This document shows, one piece after another, positions 3,685 through 14,103 of a stretch of DNA of 52,568 nt (its first letter is position 1; the number at the start of each line of letters is the position of its first letter). The notes beneath the pieces are model-generated. The model made no database searches. It saw only the letters and a program-made list of their open reading frames with translations, and was not told the origin of the DNA. This stretch comes from Lachnospiraceae bacterium (GTDB lineage Bacteria; Bacillota; Clostridia; Lachnospirales; Lachnospiraceae), in assembly GCA_017619295.1 (NCBI GenBank), contig JAFZSQ010000030.1:1-52568 (forward strand). Direction: 5' to 3'. The translations under genes and the position numbers were made by a program.

Positions 3685-5766
3685 ATGTTATCTGTAGTTA
3701 AGTGGATTATAATGGTTTTTGCCGTGGCGCTTTTGGGGCGCCCGGCGCTTATCAGAACCAAACTTAAATATGTGGACGGAGGCTTCGGATTGAACTTTGG
3801 AATCGGAAGCGGTCTGTCCTTTCTTCTTGCATGGCTTTTCTGTGCATCTTTTTCTATTCCCTTCGGAAATGCAGCGGTAATCATAAGCTTTATAATTCTG
3901 GCATTGGGTCTGAATTTATACAGCTATAAATTTGACAGAGAAAGCTTTGTGAGGCTTTGGAACAGAAGTGAACTTGTCAGGTTCCTTTTTGGCTTCCTGG
4001 CCTTTGTTTTACTGTTTTCGTTTGCTGTATGGATAAAGGGCTACAGACCCGAAATAGACGGACAAACTGAGAAATACATGGATTTTGGCATTATGCAATC
4101 CATATACAGACAGGAGAGCGCATGGCCTGAAGATTTCTGGATGAGCGGTTCGAAGCTCAACTATTACTTCCTTGGTCTTTCGGCATCCACTTATCTTACA
4201 AGGCTGGCATTCGTGACACCGACCTTTGGATATAACTTTATGCTTTGCACGCTCTTTGCCATTTCTTTGATGATGGTATTTGAACTGGTTTCATCTTTAA
4301 TAATCCACAGACAGGGAAGCGTGGCATCCGTTTATATCGGTGGAGTGTTCGGAAGCCTGGGAGCAGTGTGCGCCGGAAATGGCCACTATATTTTGTTCGG
4401 AATTGTTGTAAGAATTCTCAAAAAGATATTCGGGGAAAATCTTATCGTCAAAGATTATTGGTTCCCTGATTCCACGGTTTATATTGGCACGAATCCTGAG
4501 GTGGGGGACTTCGGAAAACATGAGTTTCCGGGTTATACCATGATTCTCGGAGATTTGCATGCCCATTTGGTTAATATGTTATGGACGCTGCCTTTCCTTG
4601 CAGTGCTCATTGATTATGCCTTGAGAGACAAAACAAAAGAAAAAGGAATAAAACACTTTTTTGATGTGCACATTATAGTTATGGGTCTCCTTTTAGGCAT
4701 CTTCAGAGGTTCCAATTTCTGGGATTTCCCGATTTACTATGTTATTGCAGGAGGCATAATTCTGTTTACCGAGCTTTGCGCCCATGGTGTGAAGCCCTTA
4801 ACCTTCCTTATGGTTTTGGCAAAGGGTGTTGTGATGTATGCGATTGCCTTTGTGGGAACACTTCCTTTCTCTTTGGGATTTAAGAAAATGATTTCAGGCA
4901 TTTGCATTGCTCATACACACTCACAGTTTTATAAGATGGTAATCATTTGGGGAATACCTTTTGTGGCGGCAACGGCTCTTATTTTGTGGATTTTCGTAAG
5001 AAGAAAAGGGTCCATAAAGCTTCTTGCCAGAATTGATTTGATAGAAATAGCTCTGGCACTTTGTGCCATGGGTTTGGTAATTGTTCCGGAGCTTATATAT
5101 GTGAAAGACATATACGGAGAGCAGTACACAAGGTTTAATACCATGTTTAAACTGACTTACCAGGCCTTCATTCTTTTCGGAATAATTTCAGGCATACTTA
5201 TGGGGCGTATCATAGCTCTTAAGAAGTGGAAATGGGCAGTAAGCTACGGATTGATTTTGCTTATTCTTTCCTCATATATCTTTACCTCAGGAAAAGTTTG
5301 GCTATATAAACACGGCGGTTCCTTTAAGGGTTTATCTGTTTTGGAAGCCACCCTTAAGGATGAGCCCGAGGATAAAGGAGCCATAAAAGAAGCAGTAAAT
5401 ATTTTGCTTAAAGATGAGAGAAAAGACATCAGATTGCTTGAAGGAGTCGGAGGAGACTACACTGACAGCAATTGCCTTTCATCTTTTACAGGTGTGCCGA
5501 CGGTGGAAGGGTGGCCTGTTCATGAATGGCTGTGGCAGAACAGTTATGATCCCGTGGGAGCCAGAACCGAAGAAGTGCGTTCATTCTATGAAGACGGTAA
5601 TGTATCTGCAAACTATGAGATGCTCCAGAAATATGGAATTGATTATATCTTCGTGGGAAAGGGAGAATATGAGCTCTACAATGTGAATCCGGAGGGCTTT
5701 TTAACACTGACGAATGAGATATTCAAAACTGAAAACGGATATATGTTTTTAAAGGTAAAAAAATAA
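3685..5766 (+). CDS. DUF2298 (YYY-type) polytopic membrane protein
   Basis: A ~693-residue membrane protein with ten or more hydrophobic helices and a soluble C-terminal ~150 residues. Features fitting the DUF2298 family are SKLNYYFLG near residue 155 and EFPGYTMILGDLHAHLVN near 279-296; the Asp-Leu-His-x-His motif is a family hallmark. These proteins resemble GT-C glycosyltransferases in layout, so a lipid-linked sugar transfer role is possible but not shown. The C-terminal part (VEGWPVHEWLW, YGIDYIFVGKGEYELY) is also typical. The start is ATG 3685; a TTG directly before it (3682) is an alternative. The stop of namZ ends at 3681, so the genes are coupled. A terminator hairpin follows. Confidence 0.8.
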   Translation: MLSVVKWIIMVFAVALLGRPALIRTKLKYVDGGFGLNFGIGSGLSFLLAWLFCASFSIPFGNAAVIISFIILALGLNLYSYKFDRESFVRLWNRSELVRFLFGFLAFVLLFSFAVWIKGYRPEIDGQTEKYMDFGIMQSIYRQESAWPEDFWMSGSKLNYYFLGLSASTYLTRLAFVTPTFGYNFMLCTLFAISLMMVFELVSSLIIHRQGSVASVYIGGVFGSLGAVCAGNGHYILFGIVVRILKKIFGENLIVKDYWFPDSTVYIGTNPEVGDFGKHEFPGYTMILGDLHAHLVNMLWTLPFLAVLIDYALRDKTKEKGIKHFFDVHIIVMGLLLGIFRGSNFWDFPIYYVIAGGIILFTELCAHGVKPLTFLMVLAKGVVMYAIAFVGTLPFSLGFKKMISGICIAHTHSQFYKMVIIWGIPFVAATALILWIFVRRKGSIKLLARIDLIEIALALCAMGLVIVPELIYVKDIYGEQYTRFNTMFKLTYQAFILFGIISGILMGRIIALKKWKWAVSYGLILLILSSYIFTSGKVWLYKHGGSFKGLSVLEATLKDEPEDKGAIKEAVNILLKDERKDIRLLEGVGGDYTDSNCLSSFTGVPTVEGWPVHEWLWQNSYDPVGARTEEVRSFYEDGNVSANYEMLQKYGIDYIFVGKGEYELYNVNPEGFLTLTNEIFKTENGYMFLKVKK

Positions 5767-5785
5767 GGCGCCAACAGGCGCCTTT
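5767..5785. terminator. Hairpin terminator between convergent genes
   Basis: GGCGCC, loop AACA, GGCGCC, then TTTAATTATTTCTTTTTA. T-rich sequence lies on both outer sides when read on the respective strand, so it can serve both the DUF2298 gene and the minus-strand regulator gene that ends at 5788. Confidence 0.75.
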
Positions 5786-5787
5786 AA

Positions 5788-6156
5788 TTATTTCTTTTTA
5801 TTCTGCTCTATGTGTTTCTTTATGATATCAAAGGTCTTATCACTTATAACATGCTCCATTCTGCATGCGTCGGCAGTGGCAGTTTCCTCATCCACACCAA
5901 GAGACATTAAAACATTGGAAAGAACGGTATGACGTTCAAAAATCTTTGTGGCAATTTTTCTGCCGGAATCAGTCAGGGTAATAAACCCGTTCTTGTCTAT
6001 GGTGATGTGATTATCAGCTTTAAGTTTAGACATGGCACGACTTACCGAAGGCTTTGAAAAGTTCATTGCGTCGGCAACGTCAATTGATCTGACATAAGAT
6101 TTCTCTTCCGATAATGTCAGTATTGTTTCCAAATACATTTCCCCAGATTCTTGCAT
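5788..6156 (-). CDS. DtxR-family iron-dependent repressor (short form)
   Basis: A 122-residue metal-sensing repressor. I choose the ATG at 6154-6156 because GGAGGG precedes it by about nine bases; the longer open frame to 6240 adds a hydrophobic run with no site. The first ~65 residues form the winged helix (VADAMNFSKPSVSRAMSKL as the recognition region). The metal ligands resemble DtxR rather than MntR: Met7 in GEMYLE where MntR has Asp, His76, and Cys98-x2-Glu101-His102 in ACRMEHVISD. This suggests sensing of Fe(II) rather than Mn(II). The SH3-like C-terminal domain of full DtxR is absent. A palindrome with DtxR-like half-sites lies ~75 bases upstream in the divergent promoter. Confidence 0.88.
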   Translation of the reverse strand: MQESGEMYLETILTLSEEKSYVRSIDVADAMNFSKPSVSRAMSKLKADNHITIDKNGFITLTDSGRKIATKIFERHTVLSNVLMSLGVDEETATADACRMEHVISDKTFDIIKKHIEQNKKK

Positions 6157-6224
6157 TATATAATACCCTCCGTTCGAAGTGATAACAAAGTAATTATAAC
6201 ATAAAAAAAATAATAAAAAAGGTA

Positions 6225-6253
6225 TTGACAAGTTAGCCATGGCTAACTATACT
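6225..6253 (+). promoter_or_regulatory. Near-consensus promoter with DtxR-type operator in its spacer
   Basis: TTGACA (6225-6230) and TATACT (6248-6253) are separated by exactly 17 bases. The spacer is filled by the perfect 18-bp palindrome AGTTAGCCATGGCTAACT (6231-6248). The half-sites GTTAG/CTAAC match the core of the DtxR/IdeR box as generally known. The regulator gene next door is divergent, so binding here could repress this promoter and perhaps also its own. The promoter points right, away from the regulator. Confidence 0.8.
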
Positions 6254-6259
6254 AAGGGA

Positions 6260-6345
6260 GTAGGCGAAAGACCTACGAGATATTCCTTTTCAATATAATG
6301 ATTTGTTTGCTTGGCAAAGGGACGAACTTATTGTTCGTCCCTTTG
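6260..6345 (+). ncRNA. Candidate iron-repressed small RNA or structured leader
   Basis: Transcription from the 6225 promoter should start near 6260. The product would fold a small hairpin GTAGG/CCTAC (6260-6276, loop CGAAAGA) and then a perfect 13-bp hairpin (6315-6327 with 6333-6345, loop TTATT). No gene with a convincing start lies in it. A 38-codon frame from ATG 6298 and a 51-codon frame from TTG 6392 exist; the second has AAAGGAG about ten bases upstream but resembles nothing I know. The large hairpin lacks a clean T-run (TTCATGCGCAG follows), so the RNA end is unsure and this could be the leader of a longer transcript. Confidence 0.4.
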
Positions 6346-6489
6346 TTCATGCGCAGATTTTATACAAAATATCCAAAGGAGAAGGGGATTATTGTACAGA
6401 TTTTATCATGTTAAAGCAATAAAGGTTGACGCTTTTGTGGGCTTTGTTGTAAATTTGAATAAAAACTTCTTAATTTTAGGCAAAATGTG

Positions 6490-6518
6490 TTGCAAAACGC
6501 ACAAACGTATGCTAATAT
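6490..6518 (+). promoter_or_regulatory. Promoter of the glp operon
   Basis: TTGCAA (6490-6495), 17-base spacer, TAATAT (6513-6518). An imperfect inverted repeat TGTG-N10-CACA (6487-6504) overlaps the -35 box and could be an operator, though I cannot assign it to a regulator. The transcript would begin near 6525, leaving a ~130-base leader before glpP. The stretch 6346-6489 between the big hairpin and this promoter holds nothing else I can support. Confidence 0.6.
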
Positions 6519-6562
6519 CTACTTGTGTTAAAGATGAAGCTTCATAAAACGCCTAGGAGAAG

Positions 6563-6615
6563 AGAGCATGGCTACACCGCATGAGAAATGCGCACTGTTA
6601 GAATGCTTTTTTTTT
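6563..6615 (+). terminator. Leader attenuator of the glp operon, likely GlpP target
   Basis: AGAGCAT (6563-6569) pairs with ATGC plus the first Ts (6603-6609), enclosing an inner hairpin CGCAT-GAGAA-ATGCG (6578-6592). Nine Ts follow (6607-6615). This is a two-tier intrinsic terminator inside the leader, before glpP. GlpP is an RNA-binding antiterminator in Bacillus, so this is its expected target. The GAGAA apical loop recurs in the glpF-glpA gap. Confidence 0.6.
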
Positions 6616-6655
6616 GCCCCAAAATCACACAAACTTACCCTAAGGGAGGGCTTTT

Positions 6656-7231
6656 ATGATGCTTAAGAGGACACCTTTCAGAGAGATATTGGCGGATACG
6701 CCGATTATCGCCGCCGTTAAGGATATGGAAGGGCTGGATAAATGCTTGGATTCAGATATTCAGGTAATCTTTATTCTTTTCGGCGACGTGTGTTCTCTCC
6801 AGGAGATTGTCAAGAAGGTTAAGGATGCCGGGAAAATAGCCATGGTTCACATGGATCTGGTTAACGGCTTTACGGGTAAAGAGATTGTTTTGGATTACAT
6901 TAAGAACTTTACTCATGCAGACGGTATCATAACAACCAAGATTAATTTGATTAAATATGCCAAGCAAATTGGATTATATACGGTACTGAGATATTTTGTT
7001 GTTGACTCAATGGCTTTATCCAACATAGAGAAGCAGGTAGACTCGATTCAGCCCGACGTTATAGAAATCCTGCCGGGAATAATGCCTAACATAATAAAGA
7101 AGGTCAACAAGATCAGTAAAGTGCCTGTCATAGCGGGGGGGCTTATCGCAGATAAGAAAGATGTTATGACGGCACTGACAAACGGTGCGGTCGCCATTTC
7201 GGCGACCAGCCCCGATGTTTGGTTTATGTGA
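6656..7231 (+). CDS. glpP: GlpP, glycerol-3-phosphate-responsive antiterminator
   Basis: A 191-residue TIM-barrel-like protein of the GlpP family, which binds G3P and then prevents termination in glp leader RNAs. Family features are TPIIAAVKDMEGL near 15-27, FILFGDVCSL, AMVHMDLVNGF, DGIITTK, LRYFVVDSMAL, DVIEILPG and VPVIAGGLI. ATG at 6656 (or 6659, ATG ATG) follows GGGAGGG. It heads the operon with glpK 46 bases downstream. A terminator-type hairpin with a T-run in its own leader suggests autoregulation by antitermination. Confidence 0.93.
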   Translation: MMLKRTPFREILADTPIIAAVKDMEGLDKCLDSDIQVIFILFGDVCSLQEIVKKVKDAGKIAMVHMDLVNGFTGKEIVLDYIKNFTHADGIITTKINLIKYAKQIGLYTVLRYFVVDSMALSNIEKQVDSIQPDVIEILPGIMPNIIKKVNKISKVPVIAGGLIADKKDVMTALTNGAVAISATSPDVWFM

Positions 7232-12843: not shown

Positions 12844-14013
12844 ATGGAAGCAGCTTACAGCGTATTCAGAGATTTAGCATTAATAGTTATATTTGCAAAG
12901 TTTTTTGGCCTTATTGCGAGAAGATGCAAGATGCCCCAGGTTGTGGGCGAGATTCTTGCGGGACTTCTGATTGGACCCTGCCTTTTAAACTGGGTTCAGC
13001 TTACAGATTATATTTCAAAGACAGCAGAAATCGGCGTTGTTCTTCTGATGTTTGGTACGGGTCTTGGAACCAACTTACAGGACCTTAAGAAGGCGGGAGC
13101 GAAGGCCTTTGCCATTGCCTGCGCCGGTGTGTTCATTCCTCTTGTTGGTGGAACATTACTCTATTCCTGCTTTTACGGATTTTCTGCTGTTGGCAGCGAG
13201 CACTTCTATAAAGCATTATTTATAGGAACAATTATGACCGCCACAAGCGTTTCCATTACGGTTGCAACCTTGCAGGAACTTGGCAAAATAAGCACCTTTG
13301 TAGGAACCACCATTGTAAGTGCGGCTATCATAGATGACGTTATCGGTATTCTGGTTCTTACCTGCGTTGTAAGTGCCGGAACCTCCACCGGAAATATCGG
13401 AGGCGTTTTTGCCAAGACAGGATTATTCATTGTATTCTCCGCAGTTGTTGCCTTTGTCGGATACAAGATAATGAAGTGGTTCGACAACAGATACCCCCAC
13501 ACTCAGAGGGTACCTATCGTGAGCCTGGCATTCTGCTTTGCCATGGCTTATATTGCTGAAGCGCACTTTGGAATAGCAGATATCACAGGTGCATATATTG
13601 CGGGCGTAATCCTTTGCTCCATTCAGGACGCAGGTTATGTATCAAGAAAAATCGACATCAGCTCATATATGTTATTCGGCCCCGTTTTCTTCGCATCCGT
13701 AGGACTTAAAACGGATATCAGCGGCCTCACACCGGAGATTCTTATTTTCTCCCTTTGCTTTGTAGCCGTTGCATTGATTACAAAGATCGTGGGCTGTGGC
13801 GGCGTTTCTGCCCTTCTTGGTTTCAGAGGACGAGACAGATTAAGAATCGGTGTCGGTATGATGACAAGAGGAGAGGTTGCCCTGATTGTGGCCCAGAAGG
13901 GATTGTCCGTGGGCCTTATTGAATCCATATATTTTGCTCCGGTAATTCTTTTGATACTGATAAGCTCGGTGGCAACGCCTATATTGTTGAAGATATTATT
14001 TAGAGAAAAATAG
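12844..14013 (+). CDS. Cation:proton antiporter (KefB/NapA-like, CPA2)
   Basis: A 389-residue membrane protein of about 12 helices matching the Na+/H+ exchanger domain of the CPA2 group. It has MPQVVGEILAGLLIGP near residue 30, TATSVSITVATLQELG, the charged helix SAAIIDDVIGILVL near 161-174 with two adjacent Asp as used for ion and proton exchange, and GMMTRGEVALIVA near 338. There is no C-terminal TrkA domain, so it is a stand-alone antiporter. Ion specificity (Na+ or K+) cannot be read. The start ATG follows GAAGAAGGAAGCG; a TATAAT-like box near 12791 may be its promoter. Confidence 0.88.
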   Translation: MEAAYSVFRDLALIVIFAKFFGLIARRCKMPQVVGEILAGLLIGPCLLNWVQLTDYISKTAEIGVVLLMFGTGLGTNLQDLKKAGAKAFAIACAGVFIPLVGGTLLYSCFYGFSAVGSEHFYKALFIGTIMTATSVSITVATLQELGKISTFVGTTIVSAAIIDDVIGILVLTCVVSAGTSTGNIGGVFAKTGLFIVFSAVVAFVGYKIMKWFDNRYPHTQRVPIVSLAFCFAMAYIAEAHFGIADITGAYIAGVILCSIQDAGYVSRKIDISSYMLFGPVFFASVGLKTDISGLTPEILIFSLCFVAVALITKIVGCGGVSALLGFRGRDRLRIGVGMMTRGEVALIVAQKGLSVGLIESIYFAPVILLILISSVATPILLKILFREK

Positions 14014-14034: not shown

Positions 14035-14103
14035 GTGCAGTTTGGGGACAGACCCCTTTTCGCACATAAAATGTGCGAAAAGGGGTCTGTCCCCAAATTG
14101 CAC
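14035..14103. repeat. Long intergenic palindromic repeat, copy A
   Basis: A perfect 27-bp inverted repeat (14041-14067 with 14071-14097, loop AAA) with outer extensions GTGCAG/TTGCAC (14035-14040, 14098-14103; one G-U pair). Each arm contains GGGGACAGACCCC. The start of copy B at 19631 has the same build (GTGCA, GGGAC, GTCCC, GCAC). This looks like a REP/MITE-type element. It sits between the antiporter stop and the clpB promoter, where it might also act as a terminator. Confidence 0.8.

Follow-up and report, generated by a model that had tools for sequence, protein, structure and literature searches.

Iron-sparing small RNAs have been named for enteric bacteria, Pseudomonas, Bacillus, Staphylococcus and Mycobacterium (PMC9410917), and this report and a second one (PMC8628891) describe the systems closest to the locus analysed here. 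RyhB of Escherichia coli is an iron-repressed, iron-sparing sRNA (PMC9410917). FsrA of Bacillus subtilis is likewise iron-repressed, and its C-rich motif binds Shine-Dalgarno sequences (PMC9410917). The staphylococcal IsrR is iron-sparing and Hfq-independent, and pairs through single-stranded C-rich regions with the 5' regions of mRNAs for Fe-S enzymes (PMC9410917). MrsI of Mycobacterium tuberculosis, about 100 nt long, has an IdeR box in its promoter and uses a short seed against iron-protein mRNAs in a host that lacks Hfq (PMC8628891, PMC9410917). No iron-controlled sRNA of Lachnospiraceae or other Clostridia was among the matches listed in a search of the open literature, which covered the starts of abstracts and left most subscription journals outside its scope. 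An earlier model reading of the DNA alone (the sequence-only reading) knew of no such RNA described in Lachnospiraceae.

In this work, we have analysed a stretch of 52,568 nucleotides from a Lachnospiraceae bacterium, called the window. We propose, as the probable reading of the sequence, that the unit at 6254-6350 is a stand-alone gene for an iron-controlled small RNA which would repress iron-rich proteins. The sequence-only reading had pointed to a candidate iron-repressed sRNA at this place, and the promoter, the operator, 97/97 conservation, the non-coding character of the unit and its predicted pairing with iron-protein genes for the most part agree with that suggestion. The features of the locus are:

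5788..6156, minus strand: DtxR-family metal-dependent repressor of 122 aa, divergent to the RNA (Pfam, MntR structure alignment, G001 orthologue)
6225..6253, plus strand: sigma-70 type promoter TTGACA-17-TATACT (sequence; same architecture, up to two mismatches, in 51 of 397 family genomes)
6231..6248, no strand: DtxR-type operator AGTTAGCCATGGCTAACT, a perfect 18-bp palindrome (sequence)
6260..6350, plus strand: putative small RNA, about 85-95 nt long (5' end placed from the -10, 3' end behind the terminator)
6260..6276, plus strand: weak 5' hairpin GTAGG-CGAAAGA-CCTAC (sequence, fold)
6277..6314, plus strand: proposed targeting region with two elements (unpairedness, predicted pairing with gene starts)
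6283-6296, plus strand: element 1 of the targeting region, UUCCUUUUC(AAUAU)
6302-6312, plus strand: element 2 of the targeting region, UUUGUUUGCUU
6315..6350, plus strand: probable intrinsic terminator (13-bp stem 6315-6327/6333-6345, TTTGTT tail from 6342)

The sequence-only reading had described a near-consensus promoter whose 17-bp spacer is filled by an 18-bp palindrome with DtxR half-sites, and on both points it was right. TTGACA (6225-6230) and TATACT (6248-6253) match the consensus at 11 of 12 positions over a 17-nt spacer, and TTGACA-N17-TATA[AC]T occurs at two sites in the whole window, this promoter being one. The palindrome AGTTAGCCATGGCTAACT, made of the spacer and the first base of the -10, is the sole perfect 18-bp palindrome in the 52,568 bases, and an operator match with up to three mismatches has a chance expectation of 0.04. 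By its sequence the promoter would thus stand under an iron repressor, since it contains a DtxR-type operator that is shared with feoA and ZIP genes.

The divergent gene encodes a protein with the Pfam domains PF01325 (Fe_dep_repress) and PF02742 (Fe_dep_repr_C), 83% identical to its orthologue in the other species of the genus (G001). It probably starts at 6156, where GGAGGG precedes the ATG, the mechanically called ORF from 6240 being probably too long. Alignment to MntR structures brings M7, E10, H76, C98, E101 and H102 to the metal-site positions. The best PDB match is 1on2 (MntR), which we take to be the MntR D8M mutant, and in the regulator D8 and E99 of wild-type MntR are replaced by M7 and C98, while E101, H102 and H76 are retained. 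The primary site of DtxR consists of M10, C102, E105 and H106, and Met and Cys at these positions are, as we assume, ligands of the DtxR/IdeR (iron) type. Because M and C are residues of this primary-site type, the metal of the regulator is likely iron, in line with the iron-type ligands that had been ascribed to it before. The features of DtxR/IdeR-type proteins are present, namely both domains and, on this alignment, a Met and a Cys where MntR has Asp8 and Glu99. An assignment to MntR was not adopted: the NCBIfam MntR models score highest on the protein but stay below their cut-offs, the DtxR model is below its cut-off too, and the ligands are M and C.

Is this type of box used for iron genes in relatives? 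Upstream of the regulator gene, the box RGTTASCNNNNGSTAACY was present with at least 13 of 14 letters at 40 of 110 regulator loci (30 + 80, with the window's own genome, G000, counted once and G001/G11 twice). Of 397 family genomes, 51 contain the pattern TTGACARGTTAGYNNNNRCTAACTATANT with up to two mismatches, whereas the reversed control matched no genome. We inspected 57 places of TTGACARGTTAGYNNNNRCTAACTATANT, 14 of them base by base. At 26 of the 57 the first gene behind the promoter is feoA, called from readings of the N-termini; the remaining places lie upstream of ABC transporters, ZIP, DUF2325-like and further genes, and some (L165, L176, L181) upstream of TetR-like regulators, where the boxes may be of a different kind. 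L178, L180, L183 and L205 were left unassigned. At 4 of the 57 places, which are the window, G001, L164 and L198, the DNA behind the box is purely non-coding up to a gene that is convergent or far away. The sequence-only reading had named, as a finding that would speak against the RNA, a relative in which feo directly follows this promoter with the hairpins missing. Such arrangements do occur in other genera, but in the window's genome feoA sits elsewhere, so in our reading they show the ancestral use or origin of the promoter and do not refute the RNA.

In the window's own genome the box is also present upstream of feoA (PF04023 match), which lies on another contig than the regulator, and upstream of a ZIP-type transporter whose best NCBIfam model is ZupT, below cut-off. 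A DtxR-type box further precedes a transporter gene that looks RND-family-like by eye (G000:C89:33789, L155; in G001, L160), and another lies just 3' of the promoter-like sequence of an enolase-like gene, eno by eye (G000:C89:29473, L004; in G001, L158); control of an enolase by an iron-type repressor would be unexpected. The boxes at the feoA, ZIP, RND-like and eno-like genes are kept in G001 in 4 of 4 cases. At two mismatches the own genome has 7 box places versus 9 for the reversed control, so weak box sites mean little by themselves.

From the position of the -10, we infer that the RNA starts near 6260, about 7 nt behind it. The fold of 6260-6347 has a z-score of -5.9. The larger of its two hairpins, a perfect 13-bp stem with a 5-nt loop at 6315-6345, folds at -23.9 kcal/mol over 6312-6346 (z -7.7), whereas 6260-6311 folds no better than its shuffles (z -1.0); of the two hairpins claimed by the sequence-only reading, therefore, the big one is strong and the small one weak. 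Its statement that no T-run follows the big hairpin did not hold. A TTTGTT tail follows the G+C part of the stem, with a T-score of 4.24 versus 3.93 and 3.18 at the terminator tails at 5765-5784. This score, counted from the end of the stem's G+C part and so beginning inside the 13-bp stem, is in the top 0.7% of window positions. An automated terminator scan of the window did not have the 6315 hairpin among the terminators it listed. The question of the 3' end is largely answered by the sequence, and not wholly, because the T count starts inside the stem and the scan omits the hairpin. No assignable gene reads into the hairpin, as the regulator gene points away from it and glpP, on the strand of the RNA, begins only further downstream. 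The locus has thus the sequence makeup of a stand-alone non-coding RNA with a terminator, one that is absent from the automated scan. The only other place in the window with a comparable stem is a 15-bp perfect inverted repeat at 14053-14085, CCCCTTTTCGCACAT.., probably a terminator, which lies behind a transporter-like gene that ends at 14013.

The accessibility of the targeting region depends on where transcription would begin. In an RNA starting at 6259-6260 the modelled mean unpaired probability is 0.70 for element 1 and 0.62-0.72 for element 2. Element 2 would be free for some start sites only, because in an RNA beginning at 6257-6258 it is predicted to be bound by the 5' end (unpaired probability 0.16-0.18).

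Among the genomes of the genus searched, the RNA with its box promoter is present in 2 of 2 (G000 and G001). In G001 the stretch 6254-6350 is identical at 97 of 97 positions, and a single base, in the middle of the palindrome, is changed in the promoter-operator. In 50-nt bins, identity is 45/50 and 48/50 over 6150-6249, 100/100 over 6250-6349 and 35/50 and 42/50 (77/100) over 6350-6449, so that it falls just behind the terminator. The bins of the regulator gene (5800-6149) are 62-88% identical, and on the glp side identity is 49, 49 and 50 of 50 over 6450-6599 and 80-100% in glpP. The RNA block stands out sharply from its right flank and from the regulator gene, but it is not the sole such stretch. 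The copies in both carrier species are identical, and therefore offer no covarying pairs.

Beyond the genus, a covariance model of the RNA (R1) was run over 397 family genomes with stricter filters. It gave E values near 1e-21 in G000 and G001 only, and in 20 further genomes E values of 0.05-1, none of them convincing; of 18 weak matches taken as loci (L254-L271) only L261 has a box, a weak one 1.5 kb from the match. A DNA search of 61 genomes (E <=10) gave outside the genus only short matches among those listed, and phage records and one exact pattern in viral contigs gave no match. Since the covariance model is convincing in two genomes only, the RNA appears by sequence to be young or fast-evolving above the genus level.

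For the prediction of targets, the sample comprised the window and 40 stretches that cover 27% of the own genome (797,568 bases in all), and the pairing of 6277-6314 was scored against -45..+18 of each start of 750 simply called genes. The five best predicted partners of the 750 are an FMN-reductase-type flavoprotein, rubrerythrin, a CsoR-type repressor and two aldo/keto reductases. The flavoprotein carries CxxCxxCx5C, presumably an iron-sulfur flavoprotein motif, and both aldo/keto reductases carry Fer4-type (4Fe-4S) domains. Lower partners include an Rrf2 regulator (rank 10), desulfoferrodoxin (rank 17), whose gene lies upstream of that for rubrerythrin on the same strand, and an NfnA-like Fe-S subunit (rank 25). 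Pfam backs the target names in a biased sample, 10 of the top 30 picked by eye as interesting. Iron-type Cys motifs, on a list of four to which two were added after seeing matches, occur in 28 of the 750 genes and in four of the top 5 (Fisher 7.6e-6), four of the top 20 (0.005) and four of the top 30 (0.02). When only the two Fe-S motifs chosen in advance are counted, which occur in 12 of 750 genes, the figures are 2 of the top 10 (p = 0.0098) and 2 of the top 30 (p = 0.08), and over the 750 starts the whole pairing distribution of these genes is not shifted (p = 0.24). The top-5 mean was matched by 1 of 40 shuffled seeds in the own genome alone, and 14 of 60 shuffles gave at least as many partners below -12 kcal/mol as the RNA. 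In a search by anti-Shine-Dalgarno pattern, 30 loci were inspected, of which two were the RNA gene, and no target was convincing.

The comparison with G001 bears on the same question. For the two top targets that have an orthologue there, predicted pairing is strong in G001 too: an Fe-S aldo/keto reductase leads the orthologous pairs with -27.0 in either species, and the flavoprotein scores -28.4 and -25.1. Over 291 orthologous pairs, none of 60 shuffled seeds reached the top-3 or the top-5 mean, one reached the top-10 mean, 3 the best single score and 12 the median; over 226 pairs and 40 shuffles the corresponding counts were 0 (top 3), 0 (top 5), 2 (top 10) and 6 (median). The third-best pair (a purine nucleoside phosphorylase by eye) and the fifth are not iron proteins, and the 1.59 Mb sampled from G001 contained no orthologue of rubrerythrin, of desulfoferrodoxin or of the second aldo/keto reductase. 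In G001 alone (1,484 genes), two of the five best partners have the motifs (p = 0.008; for the top 20, p = 0.12), another of these five is HypB, a hydrogenase maturation protein, and the top-5 mean was matched by 1 of 15 shuffled seeds. A bipartite site, RGCAAAC-N-TTGARRAGG, has five occurrences in the own sample, one of them being the RNA gene, and six in 80 stretches of G001. Within 60 bases before called starts there are two sites in the own sample (aldo/keto reductase, rubrerythrin) and two in G001 (aldo/keto reductase, flavoprotein). Forty scrambles of one element gave a mean of 0.1 start-proximal sites per sample; one scramble reached two sites in the own sample, one did so in G001, and none reached four in all. 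This count is a description more than an independent test, because the motif was drawn from these very matches and the aldo/keto pair is one orthologous case. Taken as models, the pairing predictions favour iron sparing, with weaker support from the stricter statistics.

The leader of the own feoA (G000:C49, L148 1392-1498) carries AAGCAAACAAACAAGCAAATC and that of G001 (L220) carries AAAGCAAACAAACAAGCAAATC, both complementary to element 2. The predicted pairing of AAGCAAACAAACAAGCAAATC with element 2 scores -21.1, and on this model the RNA may also act on feoA.

We propose the following mechanism. When iron is plentiful, the divergent DtxR-type repressor would bind the palindrome in the spacer and block RNA polymerase; when iron is scarce the repressor would be released, and an RNA of about 90 nt, ending at the 6315-6345 hairpin, would be made. 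In its middle part (6277-6314), an anti-Shine-Dalgarno element, CCUUUUCAAUAU, and element 2, UUUGUUUGCUU, would pair with the ribosome-binding regions of mRNAs, and this pairing would stop the translation of iron-rich, dispensable proteins such as rubrerythrin, the Fe-S-type flavoprotein and the 4Fe-4S aldo/keto reductases, probably with desulfoferrodoxin among them. Because no Hfq match was found in G000 or G001, the RNA would presumably work without Hfq, as MrsI or IsrR does. The proposed base pairs make the iron-sparing reading directly testable.

Other explanations of the locus have to be weighed against this one. It is hardly credible that 6254-6350 is a short protein-coding gene: an ATG frame at 6298 has its first 17 codons within the identical block, but no ribosome site is visible before it, it passes through the hairpin, and it runs for 38 codons in the window and 82 in G001, differing past codon 17. 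The other frames that start in the block show no ribosome site either, and none ends alike in both species. The coding reading was rejected on these grounds, and the earlier statement that the region holds no convincing gene stands, as no frame continues alike in both species. The unit might also be a relic, a promoter and terminator left behind when feoAB moved away, with a functionless RNA; in relatives the same promoter is often directly before feoA, which here is now on another contig. A relic should drift, however, and the identity of 97/97 beside 77/100 over 6350-6449 and 68-88% in most regulator-gene bins makes this very unlikely. An iron-responsive leader of the downstream glpP-glpK operon seems highly improbable to us. 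The RNA and the operon are on the same strand with glpP starting at 6656, the glp leader is strongly conserved too, including a 50/50 bin, and the scan does not list the 6315 hairpin, but a hairpin with a T-rich tail stands at 6315-6350, the sequence behind it (6350-6449) drifts, and the glp leader has a conserved stretch of its own with a T9 run. This leader (6460-6655), which contains a hairpin and the T9 run and shares 90-100% identity with G001, is probably the target of the GlpP antiterminator.

More weight is due to the alternative that the sRNA is real and iron-controlled and has another job, on the feoA leader or on non-iron targets, the matches to iron proteins being coincidental. The pairing of AAGCAAACAAACAAGCAAATC in the own feoA leader with element 2 (-21.1) fits this, and so do the several top partners that are not iron proteins; four of the five top partners in the own sample are iron-type, however, and the best-scoring orthologous pair is an Fe-S enzyme, and we regard this alternative as unlikely. 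An iron-controlled sRNA that represses iron-rich proteins remains our preferred reading.

Could other lineages have done the same? At L164 (G254:C12:50395-50544, minus strand), a DtxR-box promoter precedes about 115 nt with TCCTCCT, CACCTC and CCCTC, a hairpin terminator and a convergent gene, a layout that is, by analogy, like that of FsrA and IsrR; among 98 genomes around G254 this RNA is in G254 only, the 97 others being negative. At L198 (G286:C20 near 10202) non-coding DNA that contains ACCTCCTAG and a strong hairpin separates a DtxR-box promoter from a convergent gene. In the YSD2013 group (L126, L130, L131) the divergent DtxR-box promoter lies upstream of the gene for the same regulator, and some 290-350 nt of conserved DNA without genes separate it from a gene that is nicotinamidase-like by eye; L126 and L130 have long identical blocks in common and a hairpin with changed pairs. 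The L164 stretch has three C-rich motifs and the L198 stretch a CCUCCU motif, each with its own terminator, and Rfam (E <=0.05) gave no match over 15 related loci. We advance tentatively, with more doubt than confidence, the idea that the feo-type promoter with its DtxR box was recruited several times in Lachnospiraceae for unrelated iron-sparing RNAs (the window, L164 of G254, L198 of G286 and L126/L130/L131 of YSD2013), and that in the window's genus, which has no detectable Hfq, iron shortage lowers rubrerythrin and desulfoferrodoxin, so that oxygen defence is given up to save iron. Lachnospiraceae are abundant in guts. If our reading of the window's RNA is true, this family has an independent RNA for sparing iron, in a genus with no detectable Hfq, and the predicted targets would connect iron shortage with the loss of oxygen-defence iron proteins.

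How does the locus compare with the known iron-sparing RNAs? The sequence-only reading had called it RyhB-like, a likeness that is kept for the function, by prediction, and not for the family. An Rfam search of 5700-6700 (E <=10) gave 12 matches, all to other families and far below the cut-offs, with the RyhB family not matched. The Hfq profile (PF17209) had no match in G000, which is 95.8% complete, or in G001, and in a control it matched 5 of 14 genomes. We therefore read the RNA, by analogy, as a new lineage-specific member of the class of iron-sparing sRNAs to which FsrA, IsrR and MrsI belong, and not as a RyhB homologue. The comparisons with these RNAs are made by description, from the reports cited. 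RyhB is Fur-controlled and Hfq-assisted, whereas here there is a DtxR-type box and no Hfq or Rfam match. FsrA is like our RNA in iron repression and Shine-Dalgarno binding (PMC9410917), both predicted here; it differs in being Fur-controlled and helped by FbpABC, and no Rfam family is above cut-off at our locus. With IsrR the RNA would share iron sparing, Hfq independence and pairing with Fe-S mRNAs (PMC9410917), again as predictions. IsrR, however, is Fur-controlled and has three stem-loops plus a terminator and three C-rich regions, where we see one U/C element and a second element. MrsI belongs to another phylum, and here the box fills the spacer; as described, MrsI is like the predicted RNA in a length of about 100 nt, a DtxR-family box in the promoter, a short seed and the lack of Hfq (PMC8628891, PMC9410917).
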